From: Bacteroidales bacterium
Lineage (GTDB): Bacteria > Bacteroidota > Bacteroidia > Bacteroidales > UBA7960
Assembly: GCA_007134525.1 (NCBI GenBank)
Contig: SLKR01000027.1
Coordinates: 1 to 41,679, forward strand
Reading direction: 5' to 3'
Length of the DNA: 41,679 nucleotides
The notes under the pieces are model-generated. The model was not told the origin of the DNA. It ran no database searches and was given only the letters and a program-made list of their open reading frames with translations. Of this stretch, positions 5,969 to 11,134 are shown piece after piece. The translations under genes and the position numbers were made by a program. The number at the start of each line of letters is the position of its first letter. The first letter of the stretch is position 1.

Positions 5969-6928
5969 TTACTCCTGTCCGTTATTTTTGAGTTTAACAA
6001 TCTGGGCCGCTATGCTTAAAGCTATTTCTGCAGTGGTTGTGGCTCCAATGTCGATGCCCACGGGAGAGTGAATCTTCTGCAGCTGCTCTCTGGATGCACC
6101 ATTTTCGATGAGATTGGAGAATACAGTTTCAACCTTCTTCCTGCTGCCTATCATGCCGGTATACTTAATGGGCAGATGCAACAAACTTTCCAGGATATAC
6201 TGATCCTTAGCATGTGAGTTGGTCATGATCACCACGTAAGAATTTTCAGGATCCCTGATCTCAACCCCTGCCCTCTGATAATCGATGTTTTTCCTTGAGT
6301 GTGCAAATTTATTGCATTTCATGGTTGGCATTCCCTTCCTGTCATCCAGAACAACTACCCTGAAATCCAGCATTGCGGCCAGCTGGCTTAAAGGAATACT
6401 TATATGCCCCCCTCCGAAAATATATAATGTTTCAGGGGGGGTTACAGTTTCCTGATATAACCACTTTCCCCTGCTTTTCGATATCCCCGTTAATTGTTCA
6501 CCTTTCATCCCTGCGGAAACAGTGAATCCATCAGGCGAGGCCTTTATCGTCGTCACTTCCCCATTTTCAATCCTTTCGATAATGGTCCTTATTTTGGGAG
6601 CATCAGAAGGAATGAGCGGCAGCAATATATGTGTCTGTTCACCGGCACATATCAGCCCTGAGGCCTCCCTTCCGGCTTTTTCGGAGTGGACCTGCCTTTT
6701 TAGTATGCAACTGGAGCTGGATTCATTCAGCATCTTAACCGACAGTTTCACCATATTATGCTCCATTATTCCTCCGCCTATTGAACCTGCTGTTTCCTCT
6801 CCAGCTGCCACAGCCATTTTAAACCCTTTTCGGCCCGGGCTGCTGCCCCTGACATCCCCTACTATAACAAGGATAACGGGATCATTTGCCAAGAGTCTGT
6901 TTTCGGTAAAAATCCAGAGGTCTTCCAT
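5969..6928 (-). CDS. XdhC/CoxI-family molybdenum-cofactor maturation protein
   Basis: Encodes 319 residues of the XdhC family, whose members bind molybdenum cofactor, present it to a sulfurase and insert it into xanthine-dehydrogenase-type enzymes. The N-terminal XdhC/CoxI domain shows GDVRGSSPGRKGFKMAV and GSIGGGIMEHNMV. The C-terminal Rossmann-like domain begins at YIFGGGHISIPLSQLA and includes GMIGSRKKVE and GIDIGATTTAEIALSI near the end. The gene is divergent from the YgeY-type hydrolase across 101 bases. No xanthine dehydrogenase subunit is present here, so its client enzyme must be encoded elsewhere. I am confident in the family but not in the client. Confidence 0.88.
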   Translation of the reverse strand: MEDLWIFTENRLLANDPVILVIVGDVRGSSPGRKGFKMAVAAGEETAGSIGGGIMEHNMVKLSVKMLNESSSSCILKRQVHSEKAGREASGLICAGEQTHILLPLIPSDAPKIRTIIERIENGEVTTIKASPDGFTVSAGMKGEQLTGISKSRGKWLYQETVTPPETLYIFGGGHISIPLSQLAAMLDFRVVVLDDRKGMPTMKCNKFAHSRKNIDYQRAGVEIRDPENSYVVIMTNSHAKDQYILESLLHLPIKYTGMIGSRKKVETVFSNLIENGASREQLQKIHSPVGIDIGATTTAEIALSIAAQIVKLKNNGQE

Positions 6929-7029
6929 ATTGCTGCTTTTAGGTAAATATATGTAATTCCTGCCGTTTTTTACAATTAGATTTTGTCAAAAAACCATATC
7001 TTTAAGGCATTGCTGAAAAAACAGGCTTT

Positions 7030-8214
7030 ATGGATAAAACAGGGATGATTAGGGAACTGTCGGAAAAATACAGGAATTTTACAGCCGGCAACCTTTCAAA
7101 ACTAATAGGGATAAAGTCGCTGAGTCTTCAGGAGGCTGAAGTTCAGAAGGAACTCATGCGGCAGATGCAGGAGGCCGGTTTTGATAATGTAAGGATGGAC
7201 GGGCTGGGCAATGTCATTGGAAGGATTGGAAAAGGGAAACGAGTTCTGGCATTTGATGCACATATGGATACGGTAGACCTTGGAAACCTTGCCGACTGGA
7301 ATTTCGATCCGCTATCCGGGGAAATTGCCGGCGGCTATGTTCATGGCCGGGGAAGTGTTGACCAGAAGGGGGGTGCTGCATCCTTTGTTACTGCCGGCCG
7401 TATACTTAAGGATATTGCATTTGACCGCGACATTAGTATATTCTTCGTGGGCAGTGTAATGGAGGAGGACTGTGACGGGCTCTGCTGGAAATACCTTATT
7501 GAGGAGGAGGGGCTTAAACCCGACGCAGTTGTTGTTACCGAACCTACAAATATGAATTTATACAGGGGGCAGAGGGGAAGGATGGAAATGCAGATCGAGT
7601 TTTTCGGGCGTTCCTGTCATGGTTCTGCTCCTGAAAGGGGAGAGAACGCAATTTATATGGCTTCCAGGTCAGCCCTGGAGATTGAAAAGCTTAATGAAAG
7701 ACTGGAAGCTGATGATTTCCTGGGCAAGGGGACAATAACAGCATCAGAACTAATATCAGAGAGCCCTTCCTTATGTGCAGTAGCAGATTATGCACGGCTG
7801 CATCTCGACCGCAGGCTTACCTGGGGTGAAACCAGGGAGGGTGCTCTCAGACAGGTTGAAGAGCTATTAGGTGGTATGAGGGCTGAGGTTAAGGTTCTGA
7901 ATTATGAGGAGAGTTCATTTACCGGGCTTCGTTATGGCATGGAAAAATATTACCCCTGCTGGAAGCTCCCTGAGAACCATAAAATGATAAAGAATGCGGC
8001 ACTGGTATTTGAAAGCCTTTTTAATAAGGCTCCACATATAGGTAAGTGGACATTTTCAACAAATGGTGTCAGTATCAATGGAATATATGGGATACCGGTT
8101 ATAGGTTTTGGACCCGGTAATGAAATATTTGCACATGCACCCAACGAAAAGGTTCCGGTTGACCACCTGGTTGGGGCTTCCGCCTTTTATGCAGCACTTG
8201 CCTGCAGCTTCTGA
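7030..8214 (+). CDS. ygeY: YgeY-type M20 family metallohydrolase
   Basis: Encodes a 394-residue zinc-dependent M20 peptidase/deacylase. Predicted metal ligands are visible: H78 in DAHMD, D111 in RGSVDQKGG, the MEED pair near 144-147, and E171 in VTEPTN. The lid/dimerisation domain begins near GRSCHGSAPERGENAI. The overall pattern follows the selenium/purine-associated YgeY subfamily of M20 hydrolases. The substrate is not established; in the enterobacterial cluster it is thought to act on amide or ureide intermediates of purine breakdown. It lies five bases before the YgeW-type gene, which supports joint function. Confidence 0.85.
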   Translation: MDKTGMIRELSEKYRNFTAGNLSKLIGIKSLSLQEAEVQKELMRQMQEAGFDNVRMDGLGNVIGRIGKGKRVLAFDAHMDTVDLGNLADWNFDPLSGEIAGGYVHGRGSVDQKGGAASFVTAGRILKDIAFDRDISIFFVGSVMEEDCDGLCWKYLIEEEGLKPDAVVVTEPTNMNLYRGQRGRMEMQIEFFGRSCHGSAPERGENAIYMASRSALEIEKLNERLEADDFLGKGTITASELISESPSLCAVADYARLHLDRRLTWGETREGALRQVEELLGGMRAEVKVLNYEESSFTGLRYGMEKYYPCWKLPENHKMIKNAALVFESLFNKAPHIGKWTFSTNGVSINGIYGIPVIGFGPGNEIFAHAPNEKVPVDHLVGASAFYAALACSF

Positions 8215-8219
8215 AAATT

Positions 8220-9440
8220 ATGAACCTTCAAACTGGTATGGTTGTAATGCATGAAATATTCAATAAAGCAAGGGAAATTGAGCAATCAGGCAATGGCCTT
8301 TATGGAAAGGATTTTTTGCTTACATGGGAAAAGGAACTGAATGACCTGAGGCTTGTACTTTCTGTTGCAGACATTCTTATGCAGATGCGAAGCAAAGGGC
8401 TGTCTCCACGTGTATTTGATTCCGGCCTCGCAGTATCAAACTTCCGCGATAAATCCACAAGGACCAGGTTTTCATTTGCTTCGGCCTGCAACCTTTTGGG
8501 GCTGGCAGTCCAGGACCTTGACGAGGAGAAATCCCAGCTTTCACATGGCGAAACATCACGTGAAACTGCCGTTATGGTATCCTTCCTTACTGACTTTATA
8601 GGAATACGTGATGATATCTTCCTCGGAGAGGGAAACCGTTATATGAGAGAGGTCGCCTCCGCACTGGATGAAAGTTTCAGTGCAGGAATTCTTCCGCTGC
8701 GACCTGGAATTGTCAACCTGCAATGTGATATGGATCATCCGACCCAGTCGCTGGCTGACCTTATGCACCTTGAAAAAGAGTTTGGCTCACTCGAGGCACT
8801 CCGGGGGAAAAAGATAGTAATGAGCTGGGCATACTCTCCCAGTTATGGCAAACCTCTTTCCGTCCCTCAGGGTGTTACATCAATTATGACCCGGCTGGGG
8901 ATGAATGTTGTTCTTGCCCATCCTGAAGGATATGGACTTATACCTGAAATAGTAAAAATGGCATCCGAAAATGCCCGTGACAGCGGGGGCACTTTTAGTA
9001 TCAGCAATTCTATGGAGGATGCTGTAAGGGATGCTGATATAGTATATCCCAAAAGCTGGGCGCCCTACCAGATAATGGAGAGGCGGACTGCAATGCTGAA
9101 AGCCGGAGATAGTAAGGCGCTGGAGGATCTTGAGAAAGAGTGCCTTAATGAGAACTCCAGACATGTTGACTGGGAATACGGCCTTAGGACTAAATCGCTG
9201 ACAGCAGGAAGAAATGCTCTGTATATGCATTGTCTTCCTGCAGATATCTCCGGGGTTTCATGCAGCAGGGGAGAAGTGAGCGGCGAGGTATTTGAGTACT
9301 CCCGCCTGGACACATACAGGCAGGCTGGTTACAAACCATATATCATAGCCGCCATGATGCTCTGTAACAGGTTTGCATCTCCCTCAGAAATGCTCAGTAA
9401 TATTTTGGAAAAAGATAAATCAAGGATCAGTCAGTTATGA
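8220..9440 (+). CDS. ygeW: YgeW-type knotted carbamoyltransferase
   Basis: Encodes 406 residues, colinear with E. coli YgeW as I recall it. The carbamoyl-phosphate site STRTR is at 79-83 (FRDKSTRTRFSFASA). Other shared blocks are DLDEEKSQLSHGETSRETA, NLQCDMDHPTQSLADL, TWAYSPSYGKPLSVPQG-like MSWAYSPSYGKPLS, DIVYPKSWAPY and MHCLPADISGVSC. The family is a trefoil-knotted transcarbamylase of unsettled substrate, proposed to work in the catabolic direction to release carbamoyl phosphate. In-frame ATGs at 8238 and 8247 are alternative starts; 8247 gives a length close to the E. coli protein. The 3' end overlaps the amidase by four bases (ATGA). Confidence 0.88.
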   Translation: MNLQTGMVVMHEIFNKAREIEQSGNGLYGKDFLLTWEKELNDLRLVLSVADILMQMRSKGLSPRVFDSGLAVSNFRDKSTRTRFSFASACNLLGLAVQDLDEEKSQLSHGETSRETAVMVSFLTDFIGIRDDIFLGEGNRYMREVASALDESFSAGILPLRPGIVNLQCDMDHPTQSLADLMHLEKEFGSLEALRGKKIVMSWAYSPSYGKPLSVPQGVTSIMTRLGMNVVLAHPEGYGLIPEIVKMASENARDSGGTFSISNSMEDAVRDADIVYPKSWAPYQIMERRTAMLKAGDSKALEDLEKECLNENSRHVDWEYGLRTKSLTAGRNALYMHCLPADISGVSCSRGEVSGEVFEYSRLDTYRQAGYKPYIIAAMMLCNRFASPSEMLSNILEKDKSRISQL

Positions 9441-11134
9441 GAAACAACAGTTTTAAAAGAAGTATTCTATTGCCGGTTCTGGTTATCATGGGGCTCTATT
9501 TTTCTGGTTTTGCAGCTTCGGGCCTTAGCGGTATAGATATTGACACCCTGCGTAAGGCAGGCCGCCTGTTGGGATTCTCATTCTCCCAGAACCAGGCAGA
9601 GGTGATGATGCCTTCTGTAAGGGTGCATATGCAGAGCGCTGAAACAATACGGTCGGCCGAACTGGACAATGATGTTCCGCTCCCGCTTGTCTTTGACCCG
9701 CTGCCCCCGGGGTATGAAGTTCCTGTGAGTGGACTGAATACGACATGGCGAATTCCGGAAGAGGTCATACTTCCTGAAGATTTGGAGCAGCTTGCGTTCT
9801 TCAGTATACCTGAGCTTGCATCCCTTATCAGGAGCGGGAGAATAAGTTCTGAAGACCTGACTCTTTTTTTTCTTGACAGGCTTGAAAAATACGGCGATAC
9901 TCTTGAGGCTGTTGTAACACTTACCCGTGAAAGGGCGCTGCAGCATGCAAGGATTGCCGATCAAGAGATTGGGTCGGGTTTATACCGTGGCCCCCTGCAT
10001 GGCATTCCATATGGGGTAAAGGATCTTTTCAGTGTTGAAGGCTATGTTACCAGCTGGGGGGCAATGCCATTTAAAAACCAGCGTATAGAGAATACAGCTT
10101 CTGTGGTTAAAAAGCTTGATGAAGCCGGAGCTGTGCTTGTGGCCAAGCTCACACTTGGATCCCTCGCCATGGGAGACGTATGGTACGGGGGGCAGACCAG
10201 GAACCCCTGGAACCTGGAACAGGGCTCCAGTGGTTCATCTGCAGGTTCGGCTGCCGCTGTATCGGCCGGGCTATTGCCCTTTGCCCTCGGAACCGAAACA
10301 CTGGGAAGCCTGGTGTCACCTTCAACCAGGTGCGGGATCTCCAGCCTCAGACCAACTTTCGGGAGAGTGAGCCGGAGCGGGGCAATGGCTCTTAGCTGGA
10401 GTATGGACAAGATAGGCCCTATGGCTAGAAGTGCTGAAGACAATGCAATAGTATTTGATGTGATCAGTGGAGTGGACGGCCTGGATCAAAGCCTTGTGGA
10501 TGCAGGATTTTATTTTGACTACAATCAGGATGTAACAAATCTGAGGGTTGGATATATCAGGGATTTTTTCGATGAAGACTATACCGGAAGTGATCTTGAC
10601 AAACAGGTACTTGTTGATATGGAGGGGATGGGTGTGGAACTTGTTCCTGTGAACTGGGAATTCAGTCTGCCGGTTAATGCCCTCAGAATTATTCTTATGG
10701 CCGAGGCTGCTGCAGCTTTTGATAAGCTTACAACAACCGGTCTGGATTCAATGCTTGTAAACCAGGAGATCAATGCATGGCCCAATCTGTTCAGGGCAGC
10801 AAGGTTTATCCCTGCAGTTGAATACATAAATGCAAACAGGATTAGGTACCAGCTCTCAGTTGAGGTAAATGAGCTGATGGATGACTTTGATGTCATTATA
10901 ACTCCTTCTTTCGGTGGTAATCAACTGATGGTAACAAATCTTACAGGACATCCCTGCCTGGTTGTTCCAAACGGTTTTACACAACAGGGGTCACCGCATA
11001 GTATATCCTTTATCGGGAAACTGTTCGAAGAAGACAAGTTACTTGCCCTGGGGCATGCATGGCAACAAAATACCGCGCACCATCTGCAGCGACCGCCCCT
11101 GTTTGACTCGTCCCTTAATTATAATAATAAATAA
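9437..11134 (+). CDS. amidase-signature family hydrolase, probably exported
   Basis: Encodes 565 residues with the Ser-cisSer-Lys amidase fold shared by GatA and fatty-acid amide hydrolases. Predicted catalytic residues are K195 in PYGVKDLF, the Ser cluster GSSGSSAGS at 263-271, and the nucleophile S291 in GTETLGSLV. Unlike GatA, it has a basic N-terminus and hydrophobic segment (about residues 8-27) that looks like a signal peptide, followed by a roughly 90-residue extension before the catalytic domain, so it likely acts in the periplasm. Overlap with the YgeW-type gene suggests a shared transcript. The substrate is unknown. It is unlikely to be GatA because of the export signal and context. 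Confidence 0.85.
   Translation: MRNNSFKRSILLPVLVIMGLYFSGFAASGLSGIDIDTLRKAGRLLGFSFSQNQAEVMMPSVRVHMQSAETIRSAELDNDVPLPLVFDPLPPGYEVPVSGLNTTWRIPEEVILPEDLEQLAFFSIPELASLIRSGRISSEDLTLFFLDRLEKYGDTLEAVVTLTRERALQHARIADQEIGSGLYRGPLHGIPYGVKDLFSVEGYVTSWGAMPFKNQRIENTASVVKKLDEAGAVLVAKLTLGSLAMGDVWYGGQTRNPWNLEQGSSGSSAGSAAAVSAGLLPFALGTETLGSLVSPSTRCGISSLRPTFGRVSRSGAMALSWSMDKIGPMARSAEDNAIVFDVISGVDGLDQSLVDAGFYFDYNQDVTNLRVGYIRDFFDEDYTGSDLDKQVLVDMEGMGVELVPVNWEFSLPVNALRIILMAEAAAAFDKLTTTGLDSMLVNQEINAWPNLFRAARFIPAVEYINANRIRYQLSVEVNELMDDFDVIITPSFGGNQLMVTNLTGHPCLVVPNGFTQQGSPHSISFIGKLFEEDKLLALGHAWQQNTAHHLQRPPLFDSSLNYNNK

Follow-up and report, generated by a model that had tools for sequence, protein, structure and literature searches.

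Late genes of a probable reductive uric-acid pathway in a Bacteroidales genome, and an apparent exchange of YgeX

The locus and its genes

The window analysed here is the whole stretch of 41,679 nucleotides formed by contig SLKR01000027.1 of a Bacteroidales bacterium (assembly GCA_007134525.1), which is contig C8 of a draft metagenome-assembled genome (MAG), G000, of 2.69 Mb in 156 contigs and 96% complete. Between positions 5969 and 11134 it carries four genes, which an earlier note made from the sequence had named as an XdhC-family gene, ygeY, ygeW and an exported amidase, and Pfam and NCBIfam matches bear out these names and positions. I consider it likely that ygeY and ygeW, together with the divergent xdhC, belong to the final part of the reductive uric-acid pathway, whose early steps are encoded on other contigs, and that two pyridoxal-phosphate (PLP) enzymes, PLP1 and PLP2, most likely replace YgeX. 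This reading draws on gene presence, gene order, co-occurrence and positional exchange with YgeX as observed here, and on reactions published for Escherichia coli and clostridia; that the orthologues catalyse the same reactions, and the role of PLP1 and PLP2, I infer. In what follows G000 is the window's genome, other G numbers are genomes of relatives, L numbers are fetched contig stretches or records, and C numbers are contigs.

5969-6928, minus strand: XdhC-family maturation factor, 319 amino acids, divergent to ygeY; PF13478 (XdhC_C) 130 bits, PF02625 (XdhC_CoxI) 44 bits
6929-7029, no strand: xdhC/ygeY intergenic region, 101 bases, presumed from its position to hold a divergent promoter
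7030-8214, plus strand: YgeY-type M20 hydrolase, 394 amino acids; NF009555 496.6 bits (cut-off 321)
8220-9440, plus strand: YgeW knotted carbamoyltransferase, 406 amino acids; TIGR03316 574.8 bits (cut-off 500)
9437-11134, plus strand: amidase-signature hydrolase, 565 amino acids; PF01425 240.7 bits
11152-12273, plus strand: AI-2E family transporter; PF01594 174.8 bits; a conserved neighbour with or without the preceding amidase

The assignment of YgeY and YgeW to types known from anaerobic purine catabolism, made in the earlier note, holds, as NF009555 and TIGR03316 are both exceeded; YgeW also lies over the cut-off of NF005538 (610.3 vs. 453). The two proteins are 50% (over 391 columns) and 59% identical to E. 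coli YgeY and YgeW, respectively, and the closest solved chains to YgeW are 3q98 and 2yfk. The XdhC-family protein stays under the cut-offs of the NCBIfam XdhC models (217 vs. 350 and 112 vs. 162 bits), and probably serves the molybdenum hydroxylases encoded on contig C23. Of the 12 loci from the genus in which ygeY is visible, 11 have the xdhC gene next to it; in the twelfth, G001, no XdhC match precedes ygeY. Between the two genes, no conserved motif was seen in the part inspected by eye of an alignment of 12 loci, one of them empty.

Partner genes elsewhere in the genome

Once the whole genome is read, the finding in the window is ordinary: a known pathway distributed over several contigs, next to an unrelated amidase. 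The earlier note had pointed to the absence of xanthine dehydrogenase (XDH) subunits, YgfK, SsnA, HyuA and YgeX, and had suggested a possible different pathway, to be given up if these genes were encoded elsewhere in the genome with co-regulation and standard purine use. They are indeed missing among the four genes of 5969-11134; however, XDH, YgfK and SsnA are encoded on C23 and HyuA on C87, so that all named partners were found except YgeX. As these partners are present in the same genome, a different pathway is not needed.

On C23 the gene order is XDH small subunit (FeS and FAD), XDH molybdenum subunit, a MocA-like gene (opposite strand), YgfK, PLP1, an alpha/beta hydrolase (opposite strand), PLP2, a selenium-type XDH (SeXDH) and SsnA. 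The SeXDH exceeds the cut-off of TIGR03311 (878.9 vs. 830.5 bits), the HyuA-type D-hydantoinase at G000:C87:2042-3394, which adjoins rnf genes (named by eye), scores 501 bits against a cut-off of 393, and a carbamate kinase on C139 scores 393 bits against 358. In G014, G009 and G002 the HyuA and SsnA genes share a contig at a distance of about 13-16 kb, with ygeW on another contig, and the pathway contigs of G000 may be nearer to each other on the chromosome than the draft shows.

Three sets underlie the counts given here. The first consists of 41 genomes, G000 and 40 relatives, of which 21 have ygeW (over 250 bits, taking in fragments in G001, G012 and G018) and 20 do not. The second holds ygeW loci on genome contigs, the best 80 of 298 relatives, many of these stretches ending at contig ends. 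The third is formed by 50 further ygeW-bearing genomes taken from the 80 loci, hand-picked and not random, and of the 30 loci left outside it 12 come from the family of the window and the other 18 do not. Chlorobiota is the label of four of the 80 records, two of which are in the 50-genome set.

Although mis-binning is possible in a MAG, other Bacteroidota link the same genes physically. A single contig in L136 carries an XDH pair, YgeY, YgeW, YgfK, PLP1, PLP2 and SeXDH, and L090 and L109 each hold XdhC/YgeY-YgeW/HyuA, a 210-amino-acid protein, SsnA, SeXDH, PLP2 and PLP1 on one contig. Within the 80 ygeW stretches HyuA occurs in 36, XdhC in 31, SsnA in 21, SeXDH in 19, PLP2 in 13, PLP1 in 8 and YgfK in 6. 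Among the 41 genomes, HyuA is present in 17 of 21 with ygeW vs. 0 of 20 without (taking in a partial match of 289 bits in G013), SsnA in 18 vs. 3 (at over 300 bits, i.e. under the curated cut-off), PLP1 in 14 vs. 2 and PLP2 in 15 vs. 2. Because G000 itself encodes the partners and other Bacteroidota carry many of them together on one contig, the most plausible place for ygeY and ygeW is the closing part of the reductive uric-acid pathway, in which ureido groups are cleaved and carbamoyl phosphate is formed.

The enzymes of this anaerobic pathway were published in 2025 (PMC12507026; PMC12990295; all papers are cited here from parts of their text). In E. coli, XdhD forms yanthine from urate by reduction, YgfK and SsnA then dearomatise it and open the ring, HyuA opens the hydantoin, YgeW releases carbamoyl phosphate by phosphorolysis, YgeY hydrolyses the other ureido group and YgeX converts 2,3-diaminopropionate to pyruvate and ammonia (PMC12507026; PMC12990295). 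Which of the two ureido cleavages comes first is disputed (PMC12990295). Transferred to G000, a molybdenum hydroxylase (C23) would turn urate into yanthine, YgfK and SsnA (C23) would reduce and then open the pyrimidine ring, and HyuA (C87) would open the hydantoin to give 2,3-diureidopropionate. Judging from orthology, YgeW of the window would phosphorolyse one ureido group to carbamoyl phosphate, from which the carbamate kinase on C139 could form ATP, and YgeY, if it acts like its E. coli counterpart, would hydrolyse the other to leave 2,3-diaminopropionate, which PLP1 and/or PLP2 (C23) would break down to pyruvate and ammonia in the stead of YgeX. The window would in this way supply the energy-yielding step and the second ureido step; the release of carbamoyl phosphate from a ureido compound, as foreseen in the earlier note, matches the published role of YgeW (PMC12507026).

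Of the enzymes by which the pathway is recognised, G000 has a molybdenum hydroxylase (the Se-dependent XDH), YgfK, HyuA and both YgeW and YgeY, and no YgeX was found in it. To judge from these genes it would work like the pathway up to the YgeX step, without having the strict E. coli form. Compared with the E. coli cluster ygeWXY-hyuA-yqeA...ygfK-ssnA-ygfM-xdhD (NC_000913; PMC12507026), identities decrease from YgeW and YgeY to HyuA (38%), YgfK (34% over 1082 columns) and SsnA (32%), while both XDH molybdenum proteins are about 25% identical to XdhD, and the XdhC-family protein is 35% identical to part of YqeB. G000 differs in having its genes on C8, C23 and C87, contigs of a draft that do not give true distances, in having PLP1 and PLP2 and no detected YgeX, in the location of the carbamate kinase (C139) off the cluster contigs, and in an extra [2Fe-2S]/FAD and molybdenum XDH pair beside the Se-type enzyme. 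The UacX/UacY variant of Clostridioides difficile (PMC12507026) is similar in that it follows the same route with single steps swapped for unrelated enzymes; however, that variant replaces YgfK and YgeW, whereas G000 keeps both and apparently replaces YgeX. The neighbourhoods of Se-dependent molybdenum hydroxylases described earlier (PMC2276186) also list ygeW, ygeY, hydantoinase, XDH and accessory genes, with ygeX given for loci of E. coli, Enterococcus and C. difficile, and the stem 'Bacteroid' is absent from the main text of that paper.

Some further features of C23 stand beside these genes. A sigma-54-type activator (L024:16693-17700, minus strand), short at 335 amino acids and with model matches mainly to the ATPase and C-terminal parts, could be a candidate regulator of the cluster. 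The conserved protein of about 210 amino acids occurs at L024:16048-16686 on C23, and at L090:10642-11271, L109:10680-11312 and L227:622-1248, beside HyuA and/or SsnA; it is found in 21 of the 80 ygeW loci, exactly between HyuA and SsnA in 13. By eye it has a membrane-like N-terminus and an acetyltransferase-like C-terminus; the G000 copy gave no NCBIfam match at E<=1e-15, and the copies of two relatives no Pfam match. After SsnA follows a stretch (L024:4907-13038; also in L157, L158, L159 and L173) that is conserved in the window's genus and G023, with acyl-CoA carboxylase, enoyl-CoA hydratase and acyl-CoA dehydrogenase (leucine-type degradation, by eye) and HMG-CoA-reductase-like genes, and with no obvious purine link.

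YgeX and two pyridoxal-phosphate enzymes

No match to the YgeX model TIGR03528 was found in G000 at E<=1e-20, and among the 41 genomes there are four matches, none over the cut-off. An assembly gap is unlikely to be the whole story, because 49 of the 50 further ygeW-bearing genomes also have no match at E<=1e-30, and the single match in the remaining one is under the cut-off. PLP1, a CysK-like protein, occurs in 45 of these 50 genomes (55-76% identity, fragments counted) and PLP2, a threonine-synthase-like protein, in 43; both are present in 43, PLP1 alone in two and neither in five. Among the 41 genomes the two are similarly coupled, with PLP1 in 16 of 17 genomes having PLP2 and in 0 of 24 lacking it.

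In G000 the PLP1 and PLP2 genes are located between YgfK and the Se-type dehydrogenase, and in two ygeW-bearing genomes, G024 and G048, YgeX-family proteins that exceed the NF006058 diaminopropionate ammonia-lyase cut-off of 276 (391 and 411 bits) are encoded next to SeXDH, the usual place of PLP1 and PLP2, in G024 between YgfK and SeXDH. Neither PLP1 nor PLP2 was found in these two genomes at the thresholds used. The YgeX-family matches in G015, G019 and G038 are in genomes without ygeW, and no pathway gene was recognised next to them. PLP1 and PLP2 both match PF00291 and each has an invariant lysine, K110 of L120 in PLP1 (5 sequences) and K122 in PLP2 (10 sequences), present in the G000 proteins and in my own reading the expected PLP-binding lysine. 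By its sequence PLP1 appears to belong to a CysK-like family that no NCBIfam model fits. At E<=1e-10 it gives six NCBIfam matches, to cysteine-synthase, cystathionine beta-synthase (CBS) and SbnA models and all under cut-off, and none to the diaminopropionate ammonia-lyase models TIGR03528, TIGR01747 and NF006058. PLP2 matches E. coli YgeX weakly (24% over 173 columns) and is under cut-off for five threonine-synthase models.

Taken together, PLP1 and/or PLP2 most likely replace YgeX and would consume 2,3-diaminopropionate. The fuller proposal, in which the Bacteroidota pathway has a new ending with YgeX displaced by two co-inherited PLP enzymes that jointly convert 2,3-diaminopropionate, I favour by a small degree; perhaps one of the two acts as a racemase or partner and the other as a lyase, or the route does not end in pyruvate.

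A bin that touches these counts is G012, in which pieces of the amidase and PLP2 (contigs C345 and C310) are 100% identical to those of G000, besides its own copies at 79-80%; it is probably a mixed bin, judging by these identities. With G012 excluded, PLP1 is found in 13 of 20 genomes with ygeW vs. 2 of 20 without, and the amidase in 9 of 20 vs. 6 of 20.

The amidase, competing readings and the apparent Bacteroidota variant

The amidase belongs to the amidase signature family (PF01425), whose solved relatives include GatA, peptide amidase and biuret hydrolase, and with which it shares the Lys, cis-Ser and Ser motifs; it fits no specific NCBIfam amidase model at cut-off among the matches listed (25 of 26). 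These motifs, the residues of which I take to be catalytic, are kept in 15 aligned amidases, where L027 alone changes the first Ser of the cis-Ser motif, and this conservation suggests that the protein is probably an active enzyme. Its N-terminus, judged by eye, resembles a signal peptide. The F1 ATP synthase alpha and gamma subunits are encoded 5' of the four genes, and TruA, hypoxanthine phosphoribosyltransferase and Obg 3' of AI-2E, a transporter that is outside the pathway.

In the reading of the earlier note, the exported amidase would act with YgeY and YgeW on an external ureido amide to provide carbamoyl phosphate for ATP, as a separate ureide pathway. The two genes are on the same strand, the overlap of four bases is real in the window, and of the 12 same-genus loci in which the next gene after ygeW can be seen, 9 have the amidase there, directly 3' of ygeW and ahead of AI-2E. 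However, the junction of the other eight same-genus pairs varies from a gap of 17 bases to overlaps of 8-71 bases (at first start codons chosen by script), and in G004, G013 and G017 ygeY and ygeW are followed directly by AI-2E with no amidase between. Conversely, in G015, G016 and G019, of the same genus and without ygeW, the amidase adjoins atpG with no xdhC, ygeY or ygeW between, and is followed by AI-2E and TruA (G015, G019) or by the contig end (G016), while G023, which belongs to a different genus of this family, shows the order amidase-AI-2E-TruA and no ygeW. Neither does the amidase track ygeW: at over 590 bits, which excludes five matches of about 145-155 bits (G004, G013, G022, G026, G040), it is present in 10 of 21 genomes that have ygeW and in 6 of 20 that lack it (p = 0.34); for the genus alone the figures are 10 of 15 and 3 of 6 (p = 0.63), and it occurs in 9 of the 80 ygeW loci, in all 9 with AI-2E next. 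This synteny without ygeYW and the lack of co-occurrence lead me to reject the amidase as a pathway partner, and a separate ureide pathway is very improbable. The amidase seems to be an independent resident neighbour and a bystander to the uric-acid pathway; most simply, xdhC-ygeY-ygeW would have been inserted or deleted as a unit of three genes at a site flanked by atpG on one side and the amidase/AI-2E pair on the other.

Several observations weigh against a uric-acid pathway completed by PLP1 and PLP2, and some of them lend themselves to other explanations. On C23, the non-Se XDH pair is under the cut-offs of its best models TIGR02963 and TIGR02965 (342 vs. 467 and 805 vs. 850 bits), YgfK is nearly full length and just under that of TIGR03315 (832 vs. 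835.3), and SsnA has the SsnA models as its best matches at 357 and 315 bits against 444 and 455.5; the SsnA cut-off of TIGR03314 is reached in none of the 41 genomes, and the identification is favoured by position beside SeXDH and HyuA. These low scores, and the fact that no urate transporter was identified, although no model search was aimed at one, would suit a gene set that serves another direction or substrate than urate, for example hydantoins or the assimilation of carbamoyl phosphate; however, up to YgeX each step of the published cluster (PMC12507026) has its counterpart here, in YgfK, SsnA, HyuA, YgeW, YgeY and a Se-dependent XDH that exceeds its cut-off, which makes this improbable. 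G007 and G023 carry SsnA, PLP1 and PLP2 without detected ygeW and without HyuA over cut-off; they are incomplete assemblies or cases of partial pathway loss. Nine ygeW-bearing genomes have no PLP1, PLP2 or YgeX at the thresholds used (G001, G008, G020, G021 and G022 of the 41, 66-91% complete, and G075, G077, G079 and G084 of the 50), and the Fisher p-values overstate the evidence because the sampled genomes are kin.

By sequence PLP1 is nearest to cysteine synthase and CBS, and it has no match to E. coli YgeX at 1e-5; it matches weakly (48 bits vs. a cut-off of 350) the model of SbnA, a protein of diaminopropionate biosynthesis. PLP2 is narrowly over the threonine synthase cut-off of TIGR00260 (168.7 vs. 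167.1), so that a threonine-synthase role is possible, and the modelled PLP2 of L120 (predicted local distance difference test score, pLDDT, 78.3) matches threonine synthases first, with the Alistipes CapA2 structure at rank 18, which does not settle the substrate; the PLP1 model of L120, made from 5 sequences, has a mean pLDDT of 38.7 and is unusable. The two enzymes might therefore use diaminopropionate or a related aminoacrylate intermediate in synthesis, for instance in a beta-replacement that gives cysteine- or cysteate-like products; alternatively, PLP2 might be a threonine synthase that is carried along. I regard this as rather unlikely, as both follow the uricolytic genes and one another in the counts given above, and sit at the position taken by YgeX-family genes in G024 and G048.

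The anaerobic uric-acid pathway is relevant to gout and nitrogen recycling, and many Bacteroidota MAGs contain its gene set, in a form whose final step seems to have been swapped. In the parts of the papers used here, the six phyla named for SsnA (PMC12507026) and the four named for the gene set (PMC12542679) do not include Bacteroidota. The stem 'Bacteroid' is absent from the main text of PMC12507026, which is no proof that the occurrence is unreported; a word search of PMC11448449 gave no ygeX, ygeW, diaminopropionate or Bacteroid. As PLP1 and PLP2 both match PF00291, screens for YgeX based on this family (PMC12507026, Figure 3 legend) would count both as YgeX, and screens that use ygeX as a marker, one of six marker genes in the rule of PMC12542679, could under-score the Bacteroidota variant. 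What deserves to be retained is a testable variant of a known pathway, in which two PLP enzymes seem to stand in the place of YgeX across Bacteroidota.

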